A stretch of DNA of 64,000 nt from Beroe forskalii (lineage: Eukaryota > Ctenophora > Nuda > Beroida > Beroidae). Under the pieces are notes generated by a model, which was not told the DNA's origin, did no database searches, and was given only the letters and a program-made list of their open reading frames with translations. A program made the translations under genes and the position numbers. Each line of letters starts with the position of its first letter. Position 1 is the stretch's first letter. The stretch covers positions 2,285,755 through 2,349,754 of the forward strand of contig WFMF01000001.1 of NCBI GenBank assembly GCA_011033025.1, given 5' to 3'. Shown one piece after another: positions 2,587 to 16,915 of this stretch.

Positions 2587-3448
2587 ATGAACGACAAGTT
2601 GATTACATCTTACTCAGATTTGATACGTAGCGAAGTTGAACAAGTTCATGGCGATTATTTTGGCATCTACGTCCATAAGTTAGGAGAGCTGCTTCCTGCA
2701 TTGTCTTGTTCATATTCTGAAGATTTCACTGTATGTAGCTCAGTTGTCTTACAGTTGGACTGCGGGTCATGGGTTTTTATGTCAAATGCCAAAAACCGGC
2801 CCCGTGATAAGTACGTCAATCTCTTCTGCTCGAACAGGGTGAATTTCACATATCCGTTACCAGATGAAATCAAAGAGTTGATCCGTCACTTTTTCCCGAG
2901 CAAACAGGTAGTCAATATTTACAGCAGTTCACCTGGTTCTGATAAGGATGGTTCGGTTCTAGCTTTGCTCAATCTATACGGCACTTCACTTTCCAACCGC
3001 ATGATTGACTCTGCTAAGCTAGCACAGGACGATGTTTACGATTCCGTGCTTTCTGCTTTTAGTCAGTCTGTGTCTAATAAGAAGGTAATAAGGTTTACAG
3101 ACAATGAAATGTATTCCGTTTTCATCCCGCTTGGGGAGTGGCCTTCTTCTTCCTATTCAGTTGAAGCTTTCAGTGATGATGAAATGGCCCTTTACAGGTA
3201 TGAAAAGCTCAAGAAAGTTAAGCATGACGTATCATTTGCTTCTTGCGTTCCACCAGTGGTGCATGCAAACGCAACAAAATCAAATGATTCCATTGCTGAC
3301 TATGTCCTTTCGAGTGACGATGATGACTTCGAGATTCCAGTGTTTTCTGACAAGAAGGATGAGGTTGATCCTGCTGCCCGGCTTGCTTCTATAAGAGCAC
3401 TTGCAAATGATAAATCTGATCAACTGGCCAAACATCCAGCTGTAGATA
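2587..3448 (+). pseudogene. N-terminal fragment of giant KDZ-type transposon protein; degenerate Ulp1-like domain
   Basis: This frame opens with ATG at 2587 and gives 287 codons before it is cut by an inserted element at 3449; the open frame runs on into the element to 3489. Residues 60-68 (GSWVFMSNA), 77-82 (VNLFCS) and 109-122 (ending PGSDKDG) line up in order and spacing with the C-terminal Ulp1-like peptidase encoded at 12,335-12,545. At the three catalytic positions it has Ser61, Cys81 and Asp121 where the C-terminal copy has His, Asp and Cys, so it should be inactive. An acidic linker (DDDD near residue 243) follows. Removing the insertion and one target duplication joins this frame to codons from 7565 without a shift. 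Domain homology is inferred from motif spacing, not from a database search. Confidence 0.7.
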
Positions 3449-4397
3449 AGCCCCCACCCAGAATGCGACATCGCCATGAAGAGCATTGATATCGCCTCAG
3501 TGGAATCAGTTATCGCCTCCTTCTGAAAATTGTCGCCAGCAATTACATCATTTGCGACAATTTTCTAAGTAGGCGACCATTTAGTTTTGTTTTGTCGCCT
3601 ACAATGTATTTTTTGTCGCCTAAGTAGTACTTGATTATCATAATTTGTCGCATGTAACAAAAAATAATCGCCTTCTGGACTATGTCCAAGTCTTGAGCAA
3701 ATTTGTCGCCTCATGTAATAAATTGTCGCTTACTCTGGTGATGTAATAAATCCGTCGTCTTTAAGAAAAAATAATCGCGTTTGATATTTTCGTAGAATAT
3801 CCGAATTCTAGATTAAAATCGTCGCATATCCAGGTTGATTGTCGCTTCAGGAATCTTTTGAAATTTAATTAGAATATATAATTAATGTTGAAACAACGTG
3901 TGGGTTACATTTTACACATGGCAGAGAGAGCTTGAATTGAAACATCTTTCTCAGTTTTACGAAAATTACGATAGAGTGGATTGCAGATTTAGCAAAGAAA
4001 TGAAATTGCGTTATTCGTAATTAATGATACACACAATGAAACTATTTCAACATGTTTTCATGGTGCGTGGTTTAAAACTAAAAGTAGGCAGATACGTTGA
4101 CGTTATAATCAATGGCGCTATCATCATCTTTGAACTTTGATATAGACATGTCACATATCTTTTCCTTCCTACCCTCCCTTTATGCAAATATGCGATCGAA
4201 TTAAGTGCTGCAGCTCTCTTCCGCATCCAGTTCTGATCTAATGAAGCGATAATTGCGTGTTTGCTTAATAGCTCATGTGAGGTTAGAAGAAGGTCTAATT
4301 TCATACTTGCCCCTGTCTCTCAATTCTTGTGTGCAAATGCAAGTGTTACTGCCATGCCATCTTCGCGAGTAAATATGTAGCACATCATGATACACGC
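3449..4397 (+). repeat. left terminal inverted repeat of the foldback element
   Basis: This arm is the reverse complement of 6638-7558 with scattered substitutions and small indels. Both arms contain the same open frame starting MKLDLLLTS (minus strand 4047-4304 here, plus strand 6726-6959 in the other arm), but indels make the two products diverge after about 15 residues, so I do not call it a gene. Confidence 0.9.
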
Positions 4398-5039
4398 TAG
4401 GAACCGACCGGATCTCAGATCCGGTCCGGGATCCGGGCGTTTTTTGGGCGATCCGATCCGGTCCGGTTTGAGGGTCAAAATTTCACTGGATCCGGATCAC
4501 AGGGTTACTGTATCGGAGGTTTCACCAAAATATGAATATCTAAATTGAGAAAATTCAATACTTCAATACTCTGATGCGTACAATAACAAGTTGATCAAGT
4601 TACCCTGTCTCAGTTTTCATTGAATCCCTTTCAGTGCTGTAAAGATATATACATTGCTAGGTATATTGAGGCTCATTAGTCCCTTGACCATTAGTCGTTT
4701 GACTGCCTGACAGCCAGTAACATCAATTAGACATTAACTTGTGATTTTCTGTGGTTCATATTTCCAGTACCAACCAATCAATCCAATAAAGCACTAACTG
4801 CCTATCTAAATTCTAAGCATCGAACTACGGACTCTGTAACTTACAATAGTATGTACATATAAAAACTCTATGAGATGGATTATTAAAAAGTATTAACGCA
4901 GCATATCGAAACAAAAATGAGGTATAGGTGTTCTGAGTAAGCAAAAGTTGCTTATTCGATTTGATACGGTTAAGGGTAAAATCTTGCCAAAAATCCAGAT
5001 CGGTCCGATCCGTTCCGGTAAACCGGATTTTCTATAGAT
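4398..5039. other. foldback element interior with GATCCG-rich edges
   Basis: No gene is seen. Near 4405-4475 and 4990-5040 the sequence is built from GATCCGG/CCGGATC phrases, short overlapping palindromes that appear transitional to the GATTCG satellite starting at 5040. The middle is ordinary AT-rich DNA. Confidence 0.5.
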
Positions 5040-6410
5040 CCGATTTGATTCGATTCAATTCGACGACTCGACTCGACGATTCGATTCGTCGATTCGATTC
5101 GTCGATTCTATTCGTCGATTCGATTCGTCGATTCGATTCGTCGATTCGATTTGTTGATTCGATTTGTTGTTGATTCGATTCGTCGATTCGATTCGTCGAT
5201 TCGATTCGTCGATTCGATTGTTGATTCGATTCGTCGATTCGATTCGTCGATTCGATTCATCGATTTGATTCGATTCGAGTAGATTCGAGTCGATTCGTCG
5301 ATTCGTCGATTCGATTCGTCGATTCGATTCGAGTCGATTCGATTCGTCGATTCGATTCGTCGATTCGATTCGTCGATTCGATTCGTCGATTCGATTCGTC
5401 GATTCGATTCGTCGATTCGATTCGTCGATTCGATTCGTCGATTCGATTCGTCGATTCGATTCGTCGATTCGATTCGTCGATTCGATTCGTCGATTCAATT
5501 CGTCGATTCGATTCGTCGATTCGATTCGTCGATTCGATTCGTCGATTCATCGATTCGATTCGTCGATTCGATTCGTCGATTCGATTCGTCGATTCGATTC
5601 GTCGATTCGATTCGTCGATTCGATTCGTCGATTCGATTCGATCTCGATTCATTCGTCGATTCGATTCGTCGATTCGATTCGTCGATTCGATTCGTCGATT
5701 CGATTCGTCGATTCGATTCGTCGATTCGATTCGTCGATTCGATTCGTCGATTCGATTCGTTGATTCGATTTGTTGATTCGATTTGTCGATTCGAATCAAC
5801 GAATCGAATCGACGAATCGATTGGACGAATCGATTGACGAATCGATTGGACGAATCGATTCGACGATCAATCAAAATCGAATCGACGTCGAATCGACGAA
5901 TCGAATCAACAAATTCATCAGATCGACCCGTCGAATCGAATCCGAATCGACGAATCGAATCGTCGAATCGACGAATCGAACGAATCGGTCGACGAATCGA
6001 ATCGACGAATCAGATCGAATCGACAGATCGAATCGACAGGTGAATCCGACGAATCGAATCGACGAATCGAATCGACGAATCGACGAATCGACGAATCGAA
6101 TCGACAGAATCGACGAATCGAATCGACAGATCAGATCGACGAATCGAATGGACAAAATCGACAAATCGAATCGACGAACGTCGAATCGACGAATCGAATC
6201 GACAGATCGAATCGACGAATCGAATCGACGAATCAGATCGACGAATCGAATCGACGAACTCGAATCGAATCGACGAATCGAATCGACGAATCGAATCGAC
6301 GAATTCGAATCAATCGACGAATTCGAATCGACAAATCCCAAATCTAATAATCGAATCGACGAATCGAATGGACGAATCGAATCGACAAATCCTCGACGAA
6401 TCGAATCGAT
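5040..6410. repeat. 13-bp GATTCG satellite that inverts near 5795
   Basis: The basic unit is GATTCGATTCGTC (13 bp), repeated with few errors to about 5790. There it switches to the complementary sense (TCGAATCGACGAA) and becomes more irregular until about 6410. The flip sits near the centre of the element, so the satellite continues the palindrome. The unit contains no stop in most frames, producing long false ORFs rich in Asp-Glu-Ser-Asn-Arg and Ile-Arg-Arg-Phe-Asp. Confidence 0.95.
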
Positions 6411-6637
6411 TAATAATAATATCAACTTTTTTTTGAATAAGCGTCTATATTTTCTTATTTACAAGTTTTTATATTTTCTCATGAAATTAATTGTTTTTAT
6501 ATGAATTATTATTGTTTGACATTTTGTTTTAAGTTATTCTTTAATGCTAAACAAATTTTAACAATTGTTTTGATATTTTTTTGCGATATACTTCACAACT
6601 TCGACAAAAAAATCACTCAGTATTTCAGTGAATGTGT

Positions 6638-7558
6638 GCGTGTATCATGATGTGCTACATTACTCGTGAAGATGACATAACAGCAACACTTACATTTACA
6701 CAAGAATTGAGAGACAGGGGCAAGTATGAAATTAGACCTTCTTCTAACCTCATTACAGGCTATTAAACAACACACACTGATCGCTTCATTAGATCCAGAA
6801 CTGGATGGAAGAGAGCTGCAGCACTTAATTCCGATCATATTTGCATTAAGGGGAGGGCAGGAAGGGAAAAGGTATGTGGCATGTCCAATGTCCATATCAA
6901 AGTTCAAAGATGATGATAGTGCCATTGATTATAACGTCAACGTATCTGCCTACTTTTAGTTTTAAACCACACCATTAAATCATGTTCAAATAGTTTCATT
7001 GTGTGTATCATTAATTACGAATAACGCAATTTCATTTCTTTGCTATCGTAAAACTGAGAAAAGATGTTTCAATTCAAGCTCTCTCTCTGCCATGTGTAAA
7101 ATGTAACCCACGTTGTTTCAACATTATTTATATATTCTAATTAAATTTCAAAAGATTCTGAAGCGACTATCAACCTGGATACGCGACGATTTTAATCTAC
7201 AATTCGGATATTTACGAAAATATCAAACGCGATTATTTTTTCTTATAGGCGACGGTTTATTACATCACCAGAGTAAGCGACAATTTCTTACATGAGGCGA
7301 CAAATTTGCCCAAGACTTGGATATAGTCCAGAAGGCGATTATTTTTTGTTACATGCGACAAATTATGATAATCAAGTACTACTTAGGCGACAAAAAATAC
7401 ATTGTAGGCGACAAAAACAAAACTAAATGGTCGCCTACTTAGAATATTGTCGCAAATGATGTAATTGCTGGCGACAATTTTCAGAAGGAGGCGATAACTT
7501 ATTCTACTGAAGCGATATCAATGCTCTTCATGGCGATGTCGCATTCTGGGTGGGGGCT
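6638..7558 (-). repeat. right terminal inverted repeat of the foldback element
   Basis: Reverse complement of 3449-4397. The outermost 60 bp pair almost perfectly with the left end. Internal sequence differs by small indels, so the arms are no longer identical and the insertion is not very recent, or the arms have slipped. Confidence 0.9.
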
Positions 7559-7564
7559 TAGATA

Positions 7565-8214
7565 ATACCAGTCCACTTGCAAATGATTGTTCTGATAAAT
7601 CAGCATTTCCTGCCGCTAGTGAAATTCCTCTTGTGTCTAGCCCTGCTGTTTCGGCCAACCACTGCACTAAACATCCAGTTATAGATAATATCAGTCCACA
7701 AGCTTCAGTCGAAATCAAGTCAAACTCGGAAGTTGGTCATTTTCCAGCTAAAACCACTGGCGTTTCGTTAAGACGTCCGCTTGATCGGGCTTCTGAATCC
7801 ATCTCAAATTGCAGAAGCCTTCCTGCTATTCCTGACGTTCCATTGAAACAGCCGTTAAAACCGCCCCCTAAGTCCACTTCAACTTTCAGAAGCCTTCCTG
7901 CTATCCCTGGCAGTTTATTCAATTCCCCAAAGTCTGTAAAGGTTTCTCCGACTAGACAAGATATTTGCATTTTGAATCAACACATAGAAGGTAAGGATAA
8001 GAGTTCAAAATTAGTGCCTGAATACAAATTGCATATGAAATGTAATTTGCAGTCTTGTTTGAATTCTTCATGGAAATTCCCTCTCCACTACCACTGCTTA
8101 TTCTGTAAAACTTGGCGCCACAAAGATTTCAAACGAGCGGTTAGTCATATGTTGAAATGTAGTGGAAGTTCGTCTTTTGTCCATAGCAGTGTGCCCGTTG
8201 TTGATAGCAGATAA
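7565..8214 (+). pseudogene. middle fragment of the giant transposon protein (Pro/Ser linker plus C2HC finger)
   Basis: The frame continues directly from 3448 once the insertion is removed: the split codon becomes AAT (Asn). The joined sequence shows an internal repeat: KHPAVDN...SP at the junction resembles KHPVIDN...SP some 38 residues later, which supports the join. A proline/serine-rich linker with two similar Ser-Leu-Pro-Ala-Ile-Pro phrases follows. A C-x2-C-x13-H-x3-C zinc finger (8097-8160) matches the type found again at 8855-8917. The frame enters the 21-bp VPVVDSS repeat and stops at TAA 8212-8214. Confidence 0.75.
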
Positions 8215-8790
8215 AGTTGTTGACAGCCCGTTGTTGACAGCAGTTGCTGCCGTTGTTGAACAGTTTGCCGTTGTGCCGTTAGCGGTTGCCCGTTATTGAT
8301 AACAGTTTGCCCAAGTGTGATGTTGTTAGTTTGCAGTGTGCCCGTTAGTGCCGTTATGTTGACAGTAGTTTGCCGTTGTTGATAACAGTGTGCCCGTTGA
8401 TGCCGTTAGCAGTTTGAACGTTGTTGATAGCAGTTTGCCCGTTGTTGATAACAGTGTGCCCGTTGTTGATAGCAGTGTGCCCGTTGTTGATAACAGTGTG
8501 CCCGTTTTTGATAGCAGTGTGCCCGTTGTTGATAACAGTGTGCCTGTTGTTGGTAGCAGTGTGCCTGTTGTTGATAGCAGTTTGCCCGTTGTTGATAACA
8601 GTGTGCCCGTTGTTGATAACAGTGTGCCCGTTGTTGATAGCAGTGTGCCCGTTGTTGATAGCAGTGTGCCCGTTGTTGATAGCAGTGTGCCCGTTGTTGA
8701 TAGCAGTGTGCCCGTTGTTGATAGCAGTGTGCCCGTTGATGCCGTTAGCAGTGTGCCCGTTGTTGATAGCAGTCTACACTCTTTGATTCA
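8168..8790 (+). repeat. 21-bp coding minisatellite (VPVVDSS heptads)
   Basis: About twenty 21-bp units encode the heptapeptide V-P-V-V-D-S/N-S. From 8430 to 8780 they are orderly. From 8200 to 8420 the units are ragged, with deletions that are not multiples of three, which breaks the frame between the upstream and downstream parts of the gene. All three forward frames are open through the orderly part, giving a false frame at 8421-8786. Confidence 0.92.
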
Positions 8791-11700
8791 ATGTTGGGAT
8801 AACAAAAAGTCGTGTAAGTCCAGCACGAAGAGGAAAAAGGTGAAACATTTTCATTGTAAGTACTGTGGTCTTTCTCATGTTTCTAAGGACAGGATGAGTA
8901 AGCATGTCCTTAAGTGCGAAGCCCGACACGTTTCCGCTCCAACCCCGGCGGTGTCAAAGGATGGTTGTAAATCTGACGTTAAGAAGTCCGAGAAAAGTAA
9001 GACTTTACAGGCCGAACTGATTTGTCCTAAAATGAGTATTTGGGCAGTGCGAAACACTCCTCAAGGTCCAGCTGCCCCAATTCATGTAACTTGCAACAAG
9101 AAGGGATGGGAGTGCAGTTCGAATCTATGTCAAGATACGTATAATTTTCATGCTAACAACCTGCAGCCTAGTTTTGTCTGTGATCACGTGCAATCTTGCA
9201 TCGATAAGAGTTTGTCCCTGACATGTTCGAGTACAGAAGACCTCTTCAATGATCAAATTTCTCTTATCAGTTTCAATGACGCTGATAGGGATTCATTAAC
9301 TTCATTCTGTGCAAATGCCAAGGATTTAGGTACCCCGGTCATTAAAAAATTTGTTCCAATCATGATTGACAGTTCTTCCACTTCTCGCTACATTTATTAC
9401 AGCGTGTTTGCTGGTACAGGAGACGTTAAATACTATAGCAGGATGGGACGTGTGATTGTTGCATACGACAGACGCCTCAAAACGCACAAATGCGAATGCT
9501 CTACTCCTTGTTGCAATCATAAAAAGATTAGTATTTTGGTTTCACAGGGTAGTCCAGAGGTAAATTCTGATCGGCTTGAGGATGGCATAAGTCAAGAGGA
9601 GGTTGAATTTGCTGACAACATGATGGACTACGTTTTAGAACATAAACGCATCCCGTTTGACATGTCTCCCTACTATGATATGAAACCGATGAAAGAGTTT
9701 CAGCCTATCGAAACTTCTTGTCACAAATGTAACGTAAACTTGGTTGTTTCTAACATCAATAGGAAAGGTACAGTCTTTGAAATGTTCAAGAAAACAACTG
9801 GTGTTACTATAATAACTAAGAAGTGTCCCTCTTGTTCAATGGAATTCCGCTACTCAGAACATAAAGACGGGTATTATAACTATAATAATAACTCGATCTT
9901 CTCATCATTGCTATTAGAGGTTGGTCTCAGATCCTGGCATAAAAACACGTCATTGACTTCCTTTTTGGATATTGTAAGTATCGCTTCTAGTTTCAAGTAT
10001 AATATTCATCTGATTCTGCATGCTATCAAATCTTATCTATCTCAGAAAGACATGGGATGTGATGACAACTTTTCATGTCTCAGGTGTGGAAATCATCCGA
10101 TTTGTCTTGATTACGACGTGATACGCAATGTGTGTTTCGATGTTGATCCTCAGGATATTCAAGATCACACCTATTCCAGCTTTTCTGATTTTTTTCAGGA
10201 TTGTCGTAAACATGATTTGTGCAGGTCTTACCTTAACCCCAAGTCACGCCATTACAGTAGCAATGTTGAAAGTTTTGCTGTGAAGTTATCTCAATCTCTT
10301 CCACCTTTCATTTCTCCTAAAAATTTTGACACGCTTGGTCCTTATACACGCCCATTGATTGTTAATGATCGGCCAGAGGAGATTTCTTTACCATTAGAGA
10401 GAATAGAGCAGATTGCGAAGGGCAAGAACTCGTATAGGGAGTTAAAATCGTTGTGTAAAAAGTTCAAAATAGAAACTCGTGGGGGCAAGAAACACATGGT
10501 TGCTAGACTTATTGATTATGAGCGCAATGCCGAGGTTTATTCTATCATTCGTAAGAAGTTTACCAAGCTAACTGGTAAATCGGGGGGTATACTTCGAGCG
10601 TTCTGTCCACATGGTATAACATACGCACTTAAGTTTCTAGTACTCCCTGAGTCAGTGGCAGATTATACGCATGTTTTGTCAGGCTTCAAAATTCAGCCTA
10701 ATTTCAACTTCTCTGATATTGCATCACTCCTGGCCAAACATACCAATAATCACTACCCTGGTTTTTTTAGACCATACATGGGCCGCATTGATGATCCAAC
10801 TGATAGCCTTTGCGATCTTTACAAGGACGGCAGAAAAAAGGCCGTGTTTGATTTCAGTAATTACGTTACAACTCAAGTCGACGTTTCACATCTCAACCAT
10901 GATTCAGCCCACCCTGTTAGTAAGATGTGCTCCGTTTTGTCATTATACGATAGATTCCACGAGCCTAATCACCATGAATTTGACACTCATCTCCGTTCTA
11001 TCGACAGTACTAATTTGGCTGGCACACTTAACACCTCAGTAGCAGAGCAGCAAAATCATGTTCTTAGCCTTAAGAAGAGTTATTGTAATGAAATGAAATC
11101 TTCCCAGCACATGAAACTTGTTACATTCATAAGTAGTTCCCACAACCAACGCATTAATGATAGCTGGATATCACTTCGTAAGAAAAAACAACCTGATACA
11201 AACTTCGTTGTTGATAGTCTGGGGTTTCTTTCCGTTGGAGATCTCGCTAAGCCCATACACGAACATAGTAATTTGGACTTTGTTAGTACCAAGTCGCCAT
11301 TTCCCGTTTCACTTCTTCAGGACCCGTCAGGCAATTGCTCAGCTTTAAACTCCGTAGCATATTCTTTAGCCCATTCGCATGCTGCAGATCCCGTGTACGA
11401 GGTGCAACAATGTTTGACACAACCTTTATTATGCTTTGCAGCTTGTAAATCTGACTACTGCCAGACGACCCATTTTTCAATCAAACAGTTTGTTGATAAA
11501 ACGCTCAGTGAGAAACAACTAAGTCCAAATCCAGTTTCAATCCTTAAGTCTTGTTTCTTACCTGATTTAACAACAGCTGGTGTCTTACATTCAGTCCACG
11601 AAGCAACTTCATCAAACATGAGCTTATCATTGCATAATTGCTTGAAGTTTGAAAAACCCAATGATTTCGTTTTTCTTATACGGCCACAAAGAATGGATTA

Positions 11701-12760
11701 CTTCAATGGACCCAAAACCCATTTCGATTTACCCTTTCGTAACAACGTTCTACGATACAAACTTGCTGCTTTTGTTTCTAAGACGCATCACGAGAATATC
11801 TACTCCAGTTCTTCTTGCTTATCTGACACCTACTTTACGGTCTGTAATGTCAATACATGTAAAATCGATGAAACCGTTTTCTTAGAGACATCCAGGTCAG
11901 CAGAGTACCTCATTTTTAAACTTGACGCACCTCTCAAAGTGAAGCAATCATTCAATTCCAGGTCAGATAGCTTGAAGCGACCAGCCATCAATATTGCTAA
12001 TGATCCTTTCGAATTCAGCACTCTTCCGAAGCCTTCTAAGAAGGTGAAGATCAGTGTTTCAAGCAATCAACTTGTCAATTCACCGAGTCATCAGTGGCTT
12101 AGATATTCGGATACTGGGCGACTTGACCTGTTTTCTGACCAGTTTAAGATTTGCCATTCACCGAACCAGAAGTACGATGACGTCGTAATGAATTCCTACG
12201 CAAGAATGTGCCAAGTATATAGAAGGAATAGTTTTATATATCAGGATAGTTGTTTAAGCACTCCTTTCACTAGCTGTTTCGGTGGATTCAAGTCGGTTGA
12301 TGCTAAGTTCATTCAAATCATTAATAGAAGCAATGAGCACTGGTTCTGTATTTCTAATGCTCTGACGTTCATTGCTGAGCCCAATGTTGTTGAAATTTTC
12401 GATTCTCTAGTGCATGCCTCATTAGTAAACATGAGCATTGTTCCACACTATTTGACTCGTTATATCTTACAGTTGAGGCCTAACACTGATTGCATTAGGT
12501 ATGTCAATGTCCAGCAGCAAGCTCCAGGAACTGTCGATTGTGGTCCCATGGCTCTAGGATTTCTATGGAGTCTCTCTCACGGGCATCATCCGAAGATGTA
12601 CGACCACCTGCAAGCTGGCCTTATCAGGAATAGGGTCCGGGAGAGCTTTGTCAATAACAGGTTTTGTCCTCCATGCAATACGTCGCCTAGGAACTATCCT
12701 AAGACTGTTCTGAAAGAGTTCCGACTTGACTGTGACTCAGGGCATTTCAAAGTTGCATGA
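8390..12760 (+). CDS. KDZ/Zisupton-like transposase with CxC clusters, SAP, USP-like and Ulp1-like peptidase domains
   Basis: 1456-codon open frame; the ATG at 8390 lies in the repeat and is probably not the native start, because the gene appears to begin at 2587. Order: VPVVDSS repeat (1-130); C2HC finger C156/C159/H172/C176; CxC4-like cluster C368-C370-C374-C375-H377; zinc ribbon C444/C447/C479/C482; Cys pairs 563/566/572; SAP-like 681-712; KDZ-like core with a CPHG motif (from ~741), candidate catalytic D574 or D576, D776 and E886; USP-like peptidase with C983 (GNCSALNS) and H1133/H1134; a basic patch; Ulp1/C48-like peptidase with H1317, D1338, Q1375-1377 and C1384 (VDCGPMAL). KDZ elements and HMGXB3-type proteins are known for CxC clusters, and SUMO/ubiquitin peptidases occur in several large DNA transposons. 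Family assignment is inferred from motifs. The long intact frame suggests recent activity or selection. Confidence 0.8.
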   Translation: MPVDAVSSLNVVDSSLPVVDNSVPVVDSSVPVVDNSVPVFDSSVPVVDNSVPVVGSSVPVVDSSLPVVDNSVPVVDNSVPVVDSSVPVVDSSVPVVDSSVPVVDSSVPVVDSSVPVDAVSSVPVVDSSLHSLIQCWDNKKSCKSSTKRKKVKHFHCKYCGLSHVSKDRMSKHVLKCEARHVSAPTPAVSKDGCKSDVKKSEKSKTLQAELICPKMSIWAVRNTPQGPAAPIHVTCNKKGWECSSNLCQDTYNFHANNLQPSFVCDHVQSCIDKSLSLTCSSTEDLFNDQISLISFNDADRDSLTSFCANAKDLGTPVIKKFVPIMIDSSSTSRYIYYSVFAGTGDVKYYSRMGRVIVAYDRRLKTHKCECSTPCCNHKKISILVSQGSPEVNSDRLEDGISQEEVEFADNMMDYVLEHKRIPFDMSPYYDMKPMKEFQPIETSCHKCNVNLVVSNINRKGTVFEMFKKTTGVTIITKKCPSCSMEFRYSEHKDGYYNYNNNSIFSSLLLEVGLRSWHKNTSLTSFLDIVSIASSFKYNIHLILHAIKSYLSQKDMGCDDNFSCLRCGNHPICLDYDVIRNVCFDVDPQDIQDHTYSSFSDFFQDCRKHDLCRSYLNPKSRHYSSNVESFAVKLSQSLPPFISPKNFDTLGPYTRPLIVNDRPEEISLPLERIEQIAKGKNSYRELKSLCKKFKIETRGGKKHMVARLIDYERNAEVYSIIRKKFTKLTGKSGGILRAFCPHGITYALKFLVLPESVADYTHVLSGFKIQPNFNFSDIASLLAKHTNNHYPGFFRPYMGRIDDPTDSLCDLYKDGRKKAVFDFSNYVTTQVDVSHLNHDSAHPVSKMCSVLSLYDRFHEPNHHEFDTHLRSIDSTNLAGTLNTSVAEQQNHVLSLKKSYCNEMKSSQHMKLVTFISSSHNQRINDSWISLRKKKQPDTNFVVDSLGFLSVGDLAKPIHEHSNLDFVSTKSPFPVSLLQDPSGNCSALNSVAYSLAHSHAADPVYEVQQCLTQPLLCFAACKSDYCQTTHFSIKQFVDKTLSEKQLSPNPVSILKSCFLPDLTTAGVLHSVHEATSSNMSLSLHNCLKFEKPNDFVFLIRPQRMDYFNGPKTHFDLPFRNNVLRYKLAAFVSKTHHENIYSSSSCLSDTYFTVCNVNTCKIDETVFLETSRSAEYLIFKLDAPLKVKQSFNSRSDSLKRPAINIANDPFEFSTLPKPSKKVKISVSSNQLVNSPSHQWLRYSDTGRLDLFSDQFKICHSPNQKYDDVVMNSYARMCQVYRRNSFIYQDSCLSTPFTSCFGGFKSVDAKFIQIINRSNEHWFCISNALTFIAEPNVVEIFDSLVHASLVNMSIVPHYLTRYILQLRPNTDCIRYVNVQQQAPGTVDCGPMALGFLWSLSHGHHPKMYDHLQAGLIRNRVRESFVNNRFCPPCNTSPRNYPKTVLKEFRLDCDSGHFKVA

Positions 12761-13140: not shown

Positions 13141-15340
13141 AGGCATGGAAATTATACTCTACTGGATATTGGGATACTGTACTGGTATGGGAAACTGTAC
13201 TGGGTATTGGGATACTCTACTGGGTATTGGGAAACTGTACTGGGTATTGGGAAACAGTACTGGGGATTGGGAAACTGTACTGGGTATTGGGATACTCTAC
13301 TGGGAATTGGGAAACAGTACTGGGGATTGGGAAACTGTACTGGGTATTGGGATACTCTACTGGGATACTGTACAGGGTATTGGGAAACAATTGTGCAATG
13401 TATGATGTACTGGGTATTGGGATACTGTACAGGGTATTGGGGTACAGTACTGTGTATTGGGTGATGTACTGGGCATTGGGATACTCTACTGGGTATTGGG
13501 AAACTGTACTGGGTATTGGGATACTTTACTGGATATTGGGATACTGTACTGGGTATTGGGAAACTGTACTGGGTATTGGGAAACTGTACTGGGTATTGGG
13601 ATACTGTACAGGGGATTGGGAAACTCTACTGGGTATTGGGATACTCTACTGGGTATTGGGATACTCTACTGGGTATTGGGAAACTCTACTGGGTATTGGG
13701 AAACTGTACTGGGTATTGGGAAACCTACATTGGGGAAACTGTACTGGGGATTGGGAAACTCTTTACTGTACTGGTATTGGGGATATTGTGCTGGGTATTG
13801 GGAAACAGTACTGGGGTTTGGGATGCTTTACTGGGTATTGGGATACTCTACTGGGTATTGGGATTACTGGGAAACAGTACTGGGGATTGGGAAACTGTAC
13901 TGGGTATTGGGATACTCTACTGGGAATTGGGAAACTCTACTGGGGATTGGGAAACTGTACTGGGTATTGGGATACTCTACTGGGATACTGTACAGGGTAT
14001 TGGGGTACAGTACTGTGTATTGGGTGATGTACTGGGTATTGGGATACTGTACAGGGTATTGGGGTACAGTACTGTGTATTGGGTGATGTACTGGGCATTG
14101 GGATACTTTACTGGGTATTGGGAAACAGTACTTGGTATGGGAAACTGTACTGGGTATTGGGATACTCTACTGGGTATTGGGAAACTGTACTGGGTATTGG
14201 GAAACAGTACTGGGGATTGGGAAACTGTACTGGGTATTGGGATACTCTACTGGGAATTGGGGAAACAGTACTGGGATTGGGAAACTCTTACTGGGAATTG
14301 GAAACAGTACTGGGGATTGGGATACTGTACTGGGATATTACTGGGACTCTACTGGGAATTAGGTACAGTACTGGTATTGATGTTGGGTACAGGGACTGGG
14401 CATTGGGGTACAGTACTGTGTATTTGGGATACTCATTGGGACCTCCACTGATTGGGGAAACTGTACTGGGATTGGGATACTGTACTGGGTATTGGGATAC
14501 TCTACTGGGATACTGTACAGGGTATTGGGGTACAGTACTGGGTATTGGGATACTCTACTGGGTATTGGGAAACTCTACTGGGTATTGGGATACTCTACTG
14601 GGTATTGGGATACTGTACTGGGGATTGGGAAACTCTACTGGGTATTGGGAAACTGTACTGGGTATTGGGAAACAGTACTGGGGTTTGGGATGCTTTACTG
14701 GGTATTGGGATACTGTACTGGGTATTGGGATACTCTACTGGGTATTGGGATACTGTACTGGGTATTGGGATACTCTACTGGGTATTGGGATACTCTACTG
14801 GGAATTGGGGTACAGTACTGGGTATTGGGTGATGTACTGGGCATTGGGATACTTTACTGGATATTGGGATACTCTACTGGATATTGGGATACTCTACTGG
14901 GGATTGGGATACTGTACTGGGTATTGGGATACTCTACTGGGATACTGTACAGGGTATTGGGGTACAGTACTGGTATTTTGGTGATACTGCTTACTGTTTC
15001 AGGGTTTAGGATACAGTACTGTGTATTGGGATGTGATGTACTGGGATTGGGATACTTTACTGGGATCACAGTACTGGGTATTGGGGACAGTACTGGGTAT
15101 TGGGATAAACTCTACTGGGTATTAGGATACTCTACTGGGGTTTGGGATACTCTACTGGGTGAGGATACTTTTGGGCATTGGGGTACACTGGGTATTGGGT
15201 GACAGTACTGGGCATTGGGATGCTCTACTGGGTATTGAAAACAGTACTGGATATTGGGAAACTGTACTGGGTACTGGGAAACAGGGTTTGGGATACTCCA
15301 TCTTTATTGGATGCTTACTGGGCTTGGGATGATGTACTGG
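13141..15340. repeat. 20-bp GGG-rich minisatellite
   Basis: More than 100 units of TACTGGGTATTGGGAAACTG and its variant GGGTATTGGGATACTCTACT, each 20 bp. Every unit carries two GGG runs four bases apart, so any two neighbouring units have the four G-runs needed for a G-quadruplex. Three variants alternate (…GATACTCTACT, …GAAACTGTACT, …GAAACAGTACT), and longer blocks recur (for example the phrase containing GATACTGTACAGGGTATTGG). All plus-strand frames are open, giving false proteins of up to 321 codons. Confidence 0.96.
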
Positions 15341-16915
15341 GTATTGGGATGCTCTACTAGGGGTTTTGGGGGTGACAGTTTCTGTGTATTTAGGAGTACT
15401 ATCTCTTACAATACTTTACTGGGTCAATTTAGGAGATCACAAAGCTTAAAAGTATAAAATCTGATGTCATGGGTAAATAATATTAAATTCAGTTGCTTAG
15501 ACTCTCTGTCTTTTGGGGGGGAGTGGAGGAGGTTGGGATAGCTTGTTAAGGTATTGAGGTATCTTATCCTGAACTCAGTACAGTATTGGGAAACTTACGA
15601 TGGGTATTGGGCTCTCTCCTCTGCGAGGATGAGGTCCCGGTGCGTTTTCCCCATTGGGATACTGTTTCAAGATGGGCATACTTCTCTTTAGGGGCCGTCT
15701 TCTTGCATGGGGATAATGGGATACTCTACAGGGATTTGATTCATACTTTCCGTAGAACCCCAGTATAGTAGATTTGAAGTCTTAATAGGATACTCTACTG
15801 AATAACCCTGTCTCCAGTGAAAGTACTAGATAGCTCTACTGGGTGATCAGGATTTTTACTGGATGAAATTTATACTGTAGACCCTGACACCATTGCTTTG
15901 ACTCATCCAAAAAACCCCATTAGACTTTGGAACTTTAACAATATTGAAACTCAAACATTTTAATAATTGGGTTACTGTACAGGGCATTGGGATACTTTAC
16001 TGGGTATTGGGATACATTTACTGGATTTTGGGATAATCTAATAGTGGGATTGAAAAATTTCTGGGGGACTGATAAAATGTCTGGGTATTGGGAAGCAGTA
16101 CATAATGGGTACTACAGAACTACAGCAAACAACAAATCATTGGGATGCTTATGCCTTGAGGTTTCATCAAAAATCCCCCTCTGCTCATTTATTTGGTGAT
16201 TTTTCCTTTTTCAAGTTTATTGGGATCTCATAGAAAATGATTTCAAGGATAGTCTACTGGGGAGACTCTGGGAAAACACAACTATTTTTGGGTAGAAATC
16301 TGGGTATTGGGTGACTTGTTACTGGGCATTGGGATACTTTGACTGGATTAGTTGGCCTATTATCTGATTTCGGACATCTGAGGCGGCCGTGTATTCTCAA
16401 GAGAAATCATTGAACCACTTAACGGAGTCATTTAAAAAGGACTCAATGCAAGCAAGAAGTCATTTTCAAAGTTGAGAATGTATCTGTTTTCTCAATCTAA
16501 TCTCGGGACATTACACACCAGACTCAAATAGACGGGGGGAGGGAGAGAAATTAACAGTTTTTCTGATTTTTGCCAGGAAGGGGTCTCACCCAAAAAGAAT
16601 TCTGGAAATTTTAGATTTTAAGAAGGTTAACATTTTTCGATTATCATCAGAAACATATTTCAGTAAAGGTTGATAACTTTATAATCAAGCAACAATCTGG
16701 AAACTTCTCATCTGTTTTTCAGAGTCATACTCCTTTTCCACCTTTTGTCGGTGGGTTTGATGGCTTTATCTGTTGAATTAATAGGAATCATGAATGAACC
16801 CCTCCCCTCTTATTTAAGTCTCCAACCTTAAAAGACATTTTGTTACATCATGAACTGGGAGACAGTAATTACAGCTTAGCTTTCCTTTAAGATGTCTTTG
16901 GGATACTTACCTGGG
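15341..16915. repeat. duplication copy A, blended with the minisatellite
   Basis: This segment is homologous to copy B that follows it. From about 16,340 to 16,890 the two are almost identical. From 15,370 to 16,330, copy A alternates copy-B sequence with scattered GGGTATTGGGATACT-type phrases that replace, rather than interrupt, the corresponding copy-B bases. The open frame seen in copy B at 17,108 is destroyed here. Confidence 0.8.

Follow-up and report, generated by a model that had tools for sequence, protein, structure and literature searches.

The gene at positions 2587 to 12760 of the analysed stretch of Beroe forskalii DNA (64,000 nucleotides of contig WFMF01000001.1, here called the window; all coding features lie on its forward strand and are numbered from its first base) encodes a large transposase-like protein that the genome has in multiple copies, this one decayed. 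To judge from sequence and predicted folds, this protein combines an N-terminal domain of SENP-type fold and a middle domain of ubiquitin-specific protease (USP) fold, both apparently dead, with a C-terminal C48 peptidase domain that apparently works. The initial annotation had placed one Ulp1-like domain in the N-terminal fragment and one at the C-terminus, and both are found there, including three motif blocks that align without gaps exactly as proposed (GSWVFMSNA with EHWFCISNA, VNLFCS with VEIFDS, and VNIYSSSPGSDKDG with VNVQQQAPGTVDCG); it had overlooked the second dead peptidase domain, which belongs to another family. The three-domain layout is real and no artefact of the broken window copy, because four copies in the genome carry all three domains in single open frames (L051, L052, L053 and L054, with 2090, 1905, 2506 and 2472 residues, respectively). 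These uninterrupted copies also confirm that the N-terminal fragment and the C-terminal frame of the window are parts of one interrupted gene. From N- to C-terminus the order is a pseudo-C48 domain, a stretch of disordered repeats with zinc clusters, the CxC4 cluster, a SAP domain with the transposase core, a pseudo-USP domain and an intact C48 domain.

The N-terminal pseudo-C48 domain (2587..3126, 180 amino acids) is confidently predicted to adopt the Ulp1/SENP fold of the CE clan, and the structures nearest to the model include the SUMO protease SENP5 and the ubiquitin protease OtDUB. A complete His-Asp-Cys triad is present in none of the 26 N-domains compared, a set from which near-duplicates, fragments and truncated sequences were omitted (L010, L014, L015, L016, L020, L021, L022, L024, L026 and the partial P0004), so that the domain is not filed as a peptidase; the initial proposal of a Ulp1-like domain without its triad is thus borne out. 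In the window copy the position of the catalytic His is taken by Ser61, followed by a retained Trp62 (together 2767..2772), that of the Asp by Cys81 (2827..2829) and that of the Cys by Asp121 (2947..2949), all numbered as originally given. Among the 26, the first position is His once (P0021), the second is never Asp and is Cys in 17, and the third is Cys once (P0022); the His of P0021 and the Cys of P0022 are partial relics of the ancestral site. Non-catalytic residues are kept far better: Trp62 in 23 of the 26, Asn67 and Phe103 in 25 each, and Asp119 in all. In SENP2 and Ulp1 the corresponding Trp forms part of the wall of the tunnel that takes up the Gly-Gly tail. The ratio of nonsynonymous to synonymous substitution rates (dN/dS, Nei-Gojobori), calculated for nine pairs of N-domains, was 0.131 (window with C225), 0.121 (C717 with C1002), 0.092, 0.079 and 0.118, as well as 0.272 in one very close pair, with three pairs saturated. 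Values about 0.1 indicate that the dead domain is under purifying selection and is being maintained. None of the 12 members of the N-domain alignment matched a peptidase family in Pfam, and a search of PDB sequences with the N-domain profile gave one weak, unrelated match.

The proposed kinship of the N-domain with C48 peptidases holds up in profile comparison. An hhalign comparison of a profile of 23 N-domains with one of 34 C48 domains gave a score of 39.5 (E 1.4e-5 for this single comparison, hhalign probability 80), against a maximum of 23.8 for 200 column-shuffled N profiles and 11.8 for the reversed profile, while the N-domain and the middle domain scored 16.5. The His and Asp blocks fall in the register first proposed, and the Cys block is two positions off, with Ser123 rather than Asp121 opposite the Cys. 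An N profile built without P0027 still finds the C48 domain of P0027, with the original register at all three blocks. The resemblance thus exceeds chance at the level of sequence, and the predicted fold provides independent, model-based support for Ulp1 kinship. A mere chance pattern could be suspected, since the N-domain alone found nothing relevant in Pfam or among PDB sequences, but it is refuted by the fold match and by the profile match with its controls, and we give it practically no weight. Neither of the outcomes that would have refuted the initial annotation occurred, with fold predictions covering the N-terminal and middle domains. Less clear-cut is whether the N-domain is an internal paralogue, as initially suggested: the homology stands, and it may stem from a duplication of the element's own C48 domain or from a second capture. 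That a separate CE-clan peptidase was captured and later died is plausible, on the doubtful side of even; the two ends share only about 15% identity, and 34 of 35 single C48 domains score at most 10.1 bits with the N profile, when one of 700 shuffles reached 10.3. Against such a capture, the N profile ranks the C48 domains of the element (P0027 with 22.7 bits, E 3.6e-6 for 1000 sequences, and 17 of 35 single domains above 5 bits, compared with 5 of 700 shuffles) above human SENP5 (1.1 bits), and a W-x3-S/T-N block is common to both ends of the protein. On sequence, the N-domain thus sides with the C48 domains of its own element rather than with human SENP5, though weakly.

The middle domain (11261..11953) lies between the transposase core and the C48 domain and is confidently predicted to have a USP (C19) fold, with the catalytic Cys replaced by Ser. 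Its model also matches the pseudoubiquitin-hydrolase domain of PAN2 and a USP-fold chain of the U5.U4/U6 tri-snRNP. At the catalytic position, three residues before an invariant Asn, which we take to correspond to the Cys of the USP Cys-box motif, none of the 19 middle domains aligned has Cys (Ser in 15, Thr in two, Ala and Asp in one each); a Cys stands one residue earlier in three of the 19. By eye, a His is found at about the place of the GHY box in three of the 19 (P0013, P0020 and P0024), and the window copy has two His residues a few positions before the expected His box. Of three pairs, one gave a dN/dS of 0.175 and two were saturated. All 19 members of this alignment were without a peptidase family match in Pfam, and the PDB sequence search with the middle profile returned one weak, unrelated match.

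The C-terminal domain (12107..12682) is recognised as Peptidase_C48 by Pfam and matches SENP5 (E 5.4e-4). Its triad consists of His1324 (12338..12340), Asp1345 (12401..12403) and Cys1391 (12539..12541) in the numbering of the frame 8369-12760, seven higher than the residue numbers first assigned. Each of these residues, and the Gln before the Cys, is present in 34 of 34 domains; the set drops P0003 and P0022, whose C-terminal domains are truncated, and the short or split fragments L033, L038, L041, L047, L049 and L050 stand outside it, as does P0028, which has lost the Cys-Gly block. Among the domains compared, the N-domain is uniformly dead and the C48 domain uniformly intact, as far as the catalytic residues tell. 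PF02902 is matched by eight of nine members of the C-domain alignment (best E 2.8e-7) and exceeded at cut-off by six element loci in the genome; the window copy reaches 19.2 bits, under the cut-off of 20.7. The dN/dS values of five pairs were 0.033, 0.089 and 0.054, with two saturated. A YopJ-type acetyltransferase, suggested by precomputed Pfam names, was considered and set aside: the match in the C-terminal domain of P0009 is below cut-off and weaker than that of RickCE, and the YopJ model also matches one member of the C-domain alignment, but all of the CE clan shares the triad, and C48 is the family called most often there.

A genome search with a 173-residue N-domain query found 20 places, and a second search, with the C-terminal domain as query, found 23; N and C matches lie on the same strand and 4-10 kb apart at 11 loci (C1, C403, C225, C717, C1002, C791, C691, C625, C173, C153 and C991); C237 is a twelfth paired locus, its N-domain being picked up by profile. 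N-domains without a nearby C-domain match occur at C241 and C625 (two places each), C173 and C791, and C-domains without an N-domain match at C690, C769, C360, C1068, C270, C259, C691 (a second place), C1097 and C169. The frames at C270 (L057) and C1068 (L059) are divergent relatives of about 1480 amino acids that include the C48 domain, and an N-domain was detected in neither frame; by profile, the middle domain is found in L057 (E 6e-13) and not in L059. Further C48 domains at C1099:17667-18314 and C432:162457-162852 sit within open frames that encode 2871 and 2814 amino acids, possibly additional transposon families with peptidase domains. The layout recurs in related elements: of 29 database relatives scored (P0003-P0031), 15 match the N-domain (one partially), 22 the middle domain and 21 the C48 domain, some of them partially; nine have all three (one with a partial N-domain) and two have none. 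In all 15 carriers the N-domain match starts within the first 22 residues, and no N-domain of another family was met in its place; the 14 relatives without a match are truncated models or true absences. These relatives were recovered solely through the transposase core, where a search with a core region that includes the conserved blocks found 22 relatives, and none through the N-domain: a search of 5.8 billion proteins with the 190-residue N region of a full-length copy gave 113 candidates, none at E <= 1. The only relatives with a species name are three Mnemiopsis leidyi proteins, and 134 pattern matches in viral contigs included no relative.

The reading we prefer, at about even probability and building on predicted folds, residue losses and conservation, is that the dead domains would dock proteins tagged with SUMO or ubiquitin and that the C-terminal peptidase would take the tag off. 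The dead N-terminal and middle domains would have retained from their ancestors the task of docking substrates and would hold chromatin, silencing or repair factors carrying SUMO, ubiquitin or both near the transposase, where the C-terminal peptidase would remove the tag from the held protein. Tags at the element's own DNA would thus be both read and erased by this one protein, in all likelihood so as to counter SUMO-dependent silencing, which is known at transposons in other animals, or to steer repair after excision. More tentatively, and on balance doubtfully, two deconjugase folds unrelated to each other, one SENP-type and one USP-type, may have been turned into SUMO/ubiquitin readers and a third kept as the eraser, forming a self-contained reader-eraser device; if so, a mobile element would seek out its own copies' silencing or repair marks, set by the host, and remove them. 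Several points weigh against the docking model. A preference for SUMO or ubiquitin is not readable from the predicted fold, because the N-domain model is near both SENP5 and OtDUB and because the USP fold can serve SUMO, as USPL1 shows (PMC8983731). The label "dead" rests on missing residues, and USP53 and USP54, formerly annotated as dead, were found active (reported in PMC12037411). Trp62 may be conserved just for packing. The pseudo-USP domain is undetected in P0022 and P0027, so that the family can do without it. Finally, neither element ends nor target duplications of the element's own were found, so that the case for mobility is built on copy number and kinship.

The same domains could instead be structural or regulatory, holding a transposase multimer together or controlling the C-terminal peptidase without binding any ubiquitin-like protein, an explanation that is credible while falling short of even probability. 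Pseudoenzymes frequently have such roles, and the middle domain matches PAN2 and the tri-snRNP chain, both of which are architectural; however, a shared ligand class more readily accounts for two differing deconjugase folds that accompany an apparently active third one, and the Trp adjoining the lost His persists in nearly all N-domains. It is rather unlikely that the copies are a host multigene family that derives from a transposon and is mobile no longer. This would fit the modest copy number, the deep divergence (several pairs have a dS above 0.6 or are saturated), the long intact frames with low dN/dS, the lack of visible terminal inverted repeats and the fact that the window gene ends, on its 3' side, in 381 bases that match no other place. 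By contrast, several broken copies (the window, C225 and C717 with stops, and C403, which is split) fit the turnover of mobile copies, and recurrently active transposon lineages likewise give low dN/dS. Functionless relics drifting to loss, as the vanished catalytic residues and the failure of Pfam to recognise either dead domain might suggest, are very improbable given the constraint on the N-domain, its near-invariant Asp119, Asn67 and Phe103, and the confident folds.

The window copy is broken by an insert. Its N-terminal open frame (2587..3489) runs from about 3447 into an inserted inverted-repeat, foldback-like element (3447..7560), so that the N-terminal fragment first described contains the domain as claimed, but its last 13 or so residues are translated from the insert. 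This element measures about 4.1 kb, has inverted ends of about 300 bases (arms 3447-3593/7414-7560 and 3585-3750/7256-7421, 97% complementary) and contains a satellite of 13-bp units (5050-6409). TAGATAA was seen by eye on either side; a scripted search for exact duplications of at least 8 bases at its borders found none. The coding region continues at 7561..8214 with a zinc-binding-like Cys/His motif similar to one in the full-length L051 and L052, followed by a stop between 8214 and 8369 and the main open frame (8369..12760, 1463 amino acids), which begins within an in-frame 21-bp minisatellite (8357-8773). Long in-frame minisatellites also occur in L051, L052, L053 and L054, with unit sequences that differ by copy, and the stretch between N-domain and transposase that bears them is a hypervariable coding region. 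Downstream lie a Cys/His motif that we take to be SWIM-like, although it has no library match (9491..9526), with Cys and His columns invariant in a five-copy alignment, and the most conserved blocks of the transposase core (10601..11062; CPHG...LPES..DY ... DRFHE ... EQ.N), with many invariant columns in five copies. Immediately upstream of the gene is a minisatellite of 25-bp units (1880-2564) that recurs in the C225 copy, matching there at up to 93% and extending further. Beyond the gene, an array of a 20-bp unit (ATACTGTACTGGGTATTGGG) extends over 2.2 kb (13154-15358) and is open in several frames.

The element had been assigned to the KDZ transposons, and kinship with these is likely, on the strength of the CxC4 motif. 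The cysteine cluster (9719..9835) corresponds to the KDZ-associated PF18717, which is above cut-off in the full-length P0002 (E 5.3e-8) and in P0009, P0017, P0022, P0023 and P0027, below it in P0021 and not called in the window copy itself. A SAP domain (10430..10525; PF02037, E 7.9e-5) scores 22.6 bits, just under the cut-off of 23.9, and 24.0 bits in P0002. The other expected marks of a KDZ element were not found: hmmscan gave no match to the transposase model PF18758 in the scanned proteins, the whole-genome search with this model was silent, as was its control, and the flanks of the window, C791, C1002, C717, C403 and C690 showed exact inverted matches of at most 12 bases, in short flanks and by exact matching that imperfect repeats would escape.

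Zisupton, of the KDZ group, has a C-terminal Ulp1-like domain. The present element resembles KDZ transposons in the CxC4 cluster, which Pfam names as KDZ-associated, the SAP domain and the large multi-copy transposase-like protein. It differs in having no KDZ-domain match, in its pseudo-C48 and pseudo-USP domains and in that no terminal inverted repeats were found, whereas Zisupton has terminal inverted repeats and 8-bp target duplications according to passages of PMC12730594. PAN2 and Sad1/USP39 are pseudo-USPs of architectural role in host RNA processing, unlike the pseudo-USP here, which is part of a transposase-like protein and stands beside an apparently active C48 domain. The SENP5/Ulp1 SUMO proteases (C48) share the fold of the N-domain, as well as the sequence and complete triad of the C-terminal domain, but the N-domain has a complete triad in none of the 26 sequences. 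Ginger1 and Mutator-like transposons that carry Ulp1 or OTU domains are similar in that a transposase bears a C-terminal Ulp1 domain, but they belong to other transposase families, and the passages of PMC2836005 concerned speak of a peptidase domain at the C-terminus and mention none that is dead. The Trichomonas protein XP_001314237.1 joins a transposase_11 domain to a Peptidase C19 domain that those passages describe as taking part in ubiquitin removal (PMC2836005); here, by contrast, the USP fold lacks its Cys and is placed between transposase and C48 domain. The same passages note Ulp1, OTU and C19 peptidase domains in several transposon groups, only suggest a role for them and propose from them that SUMO and ubiquitin pathways aid transposition or repair (PMC2836005). 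Among the matches listed in the open-licence PMC literature, none described a transposase whose Ulp1 or USP domain is dead. Such domains can escape sequence libraries and need fold prediction, and may be commoner in transposases than known. Two dead deconjugases of different families together with a live one suggest that binding surfaces, and not just cutting, are under selection, and with separable domains at hand the direct use of SUMO and ubiquitin marks by transposons becomes testable. Compared with the transposons known to carry peptidase domains, the arrangement suggests that the two dead deconjugases add reading to erasing.

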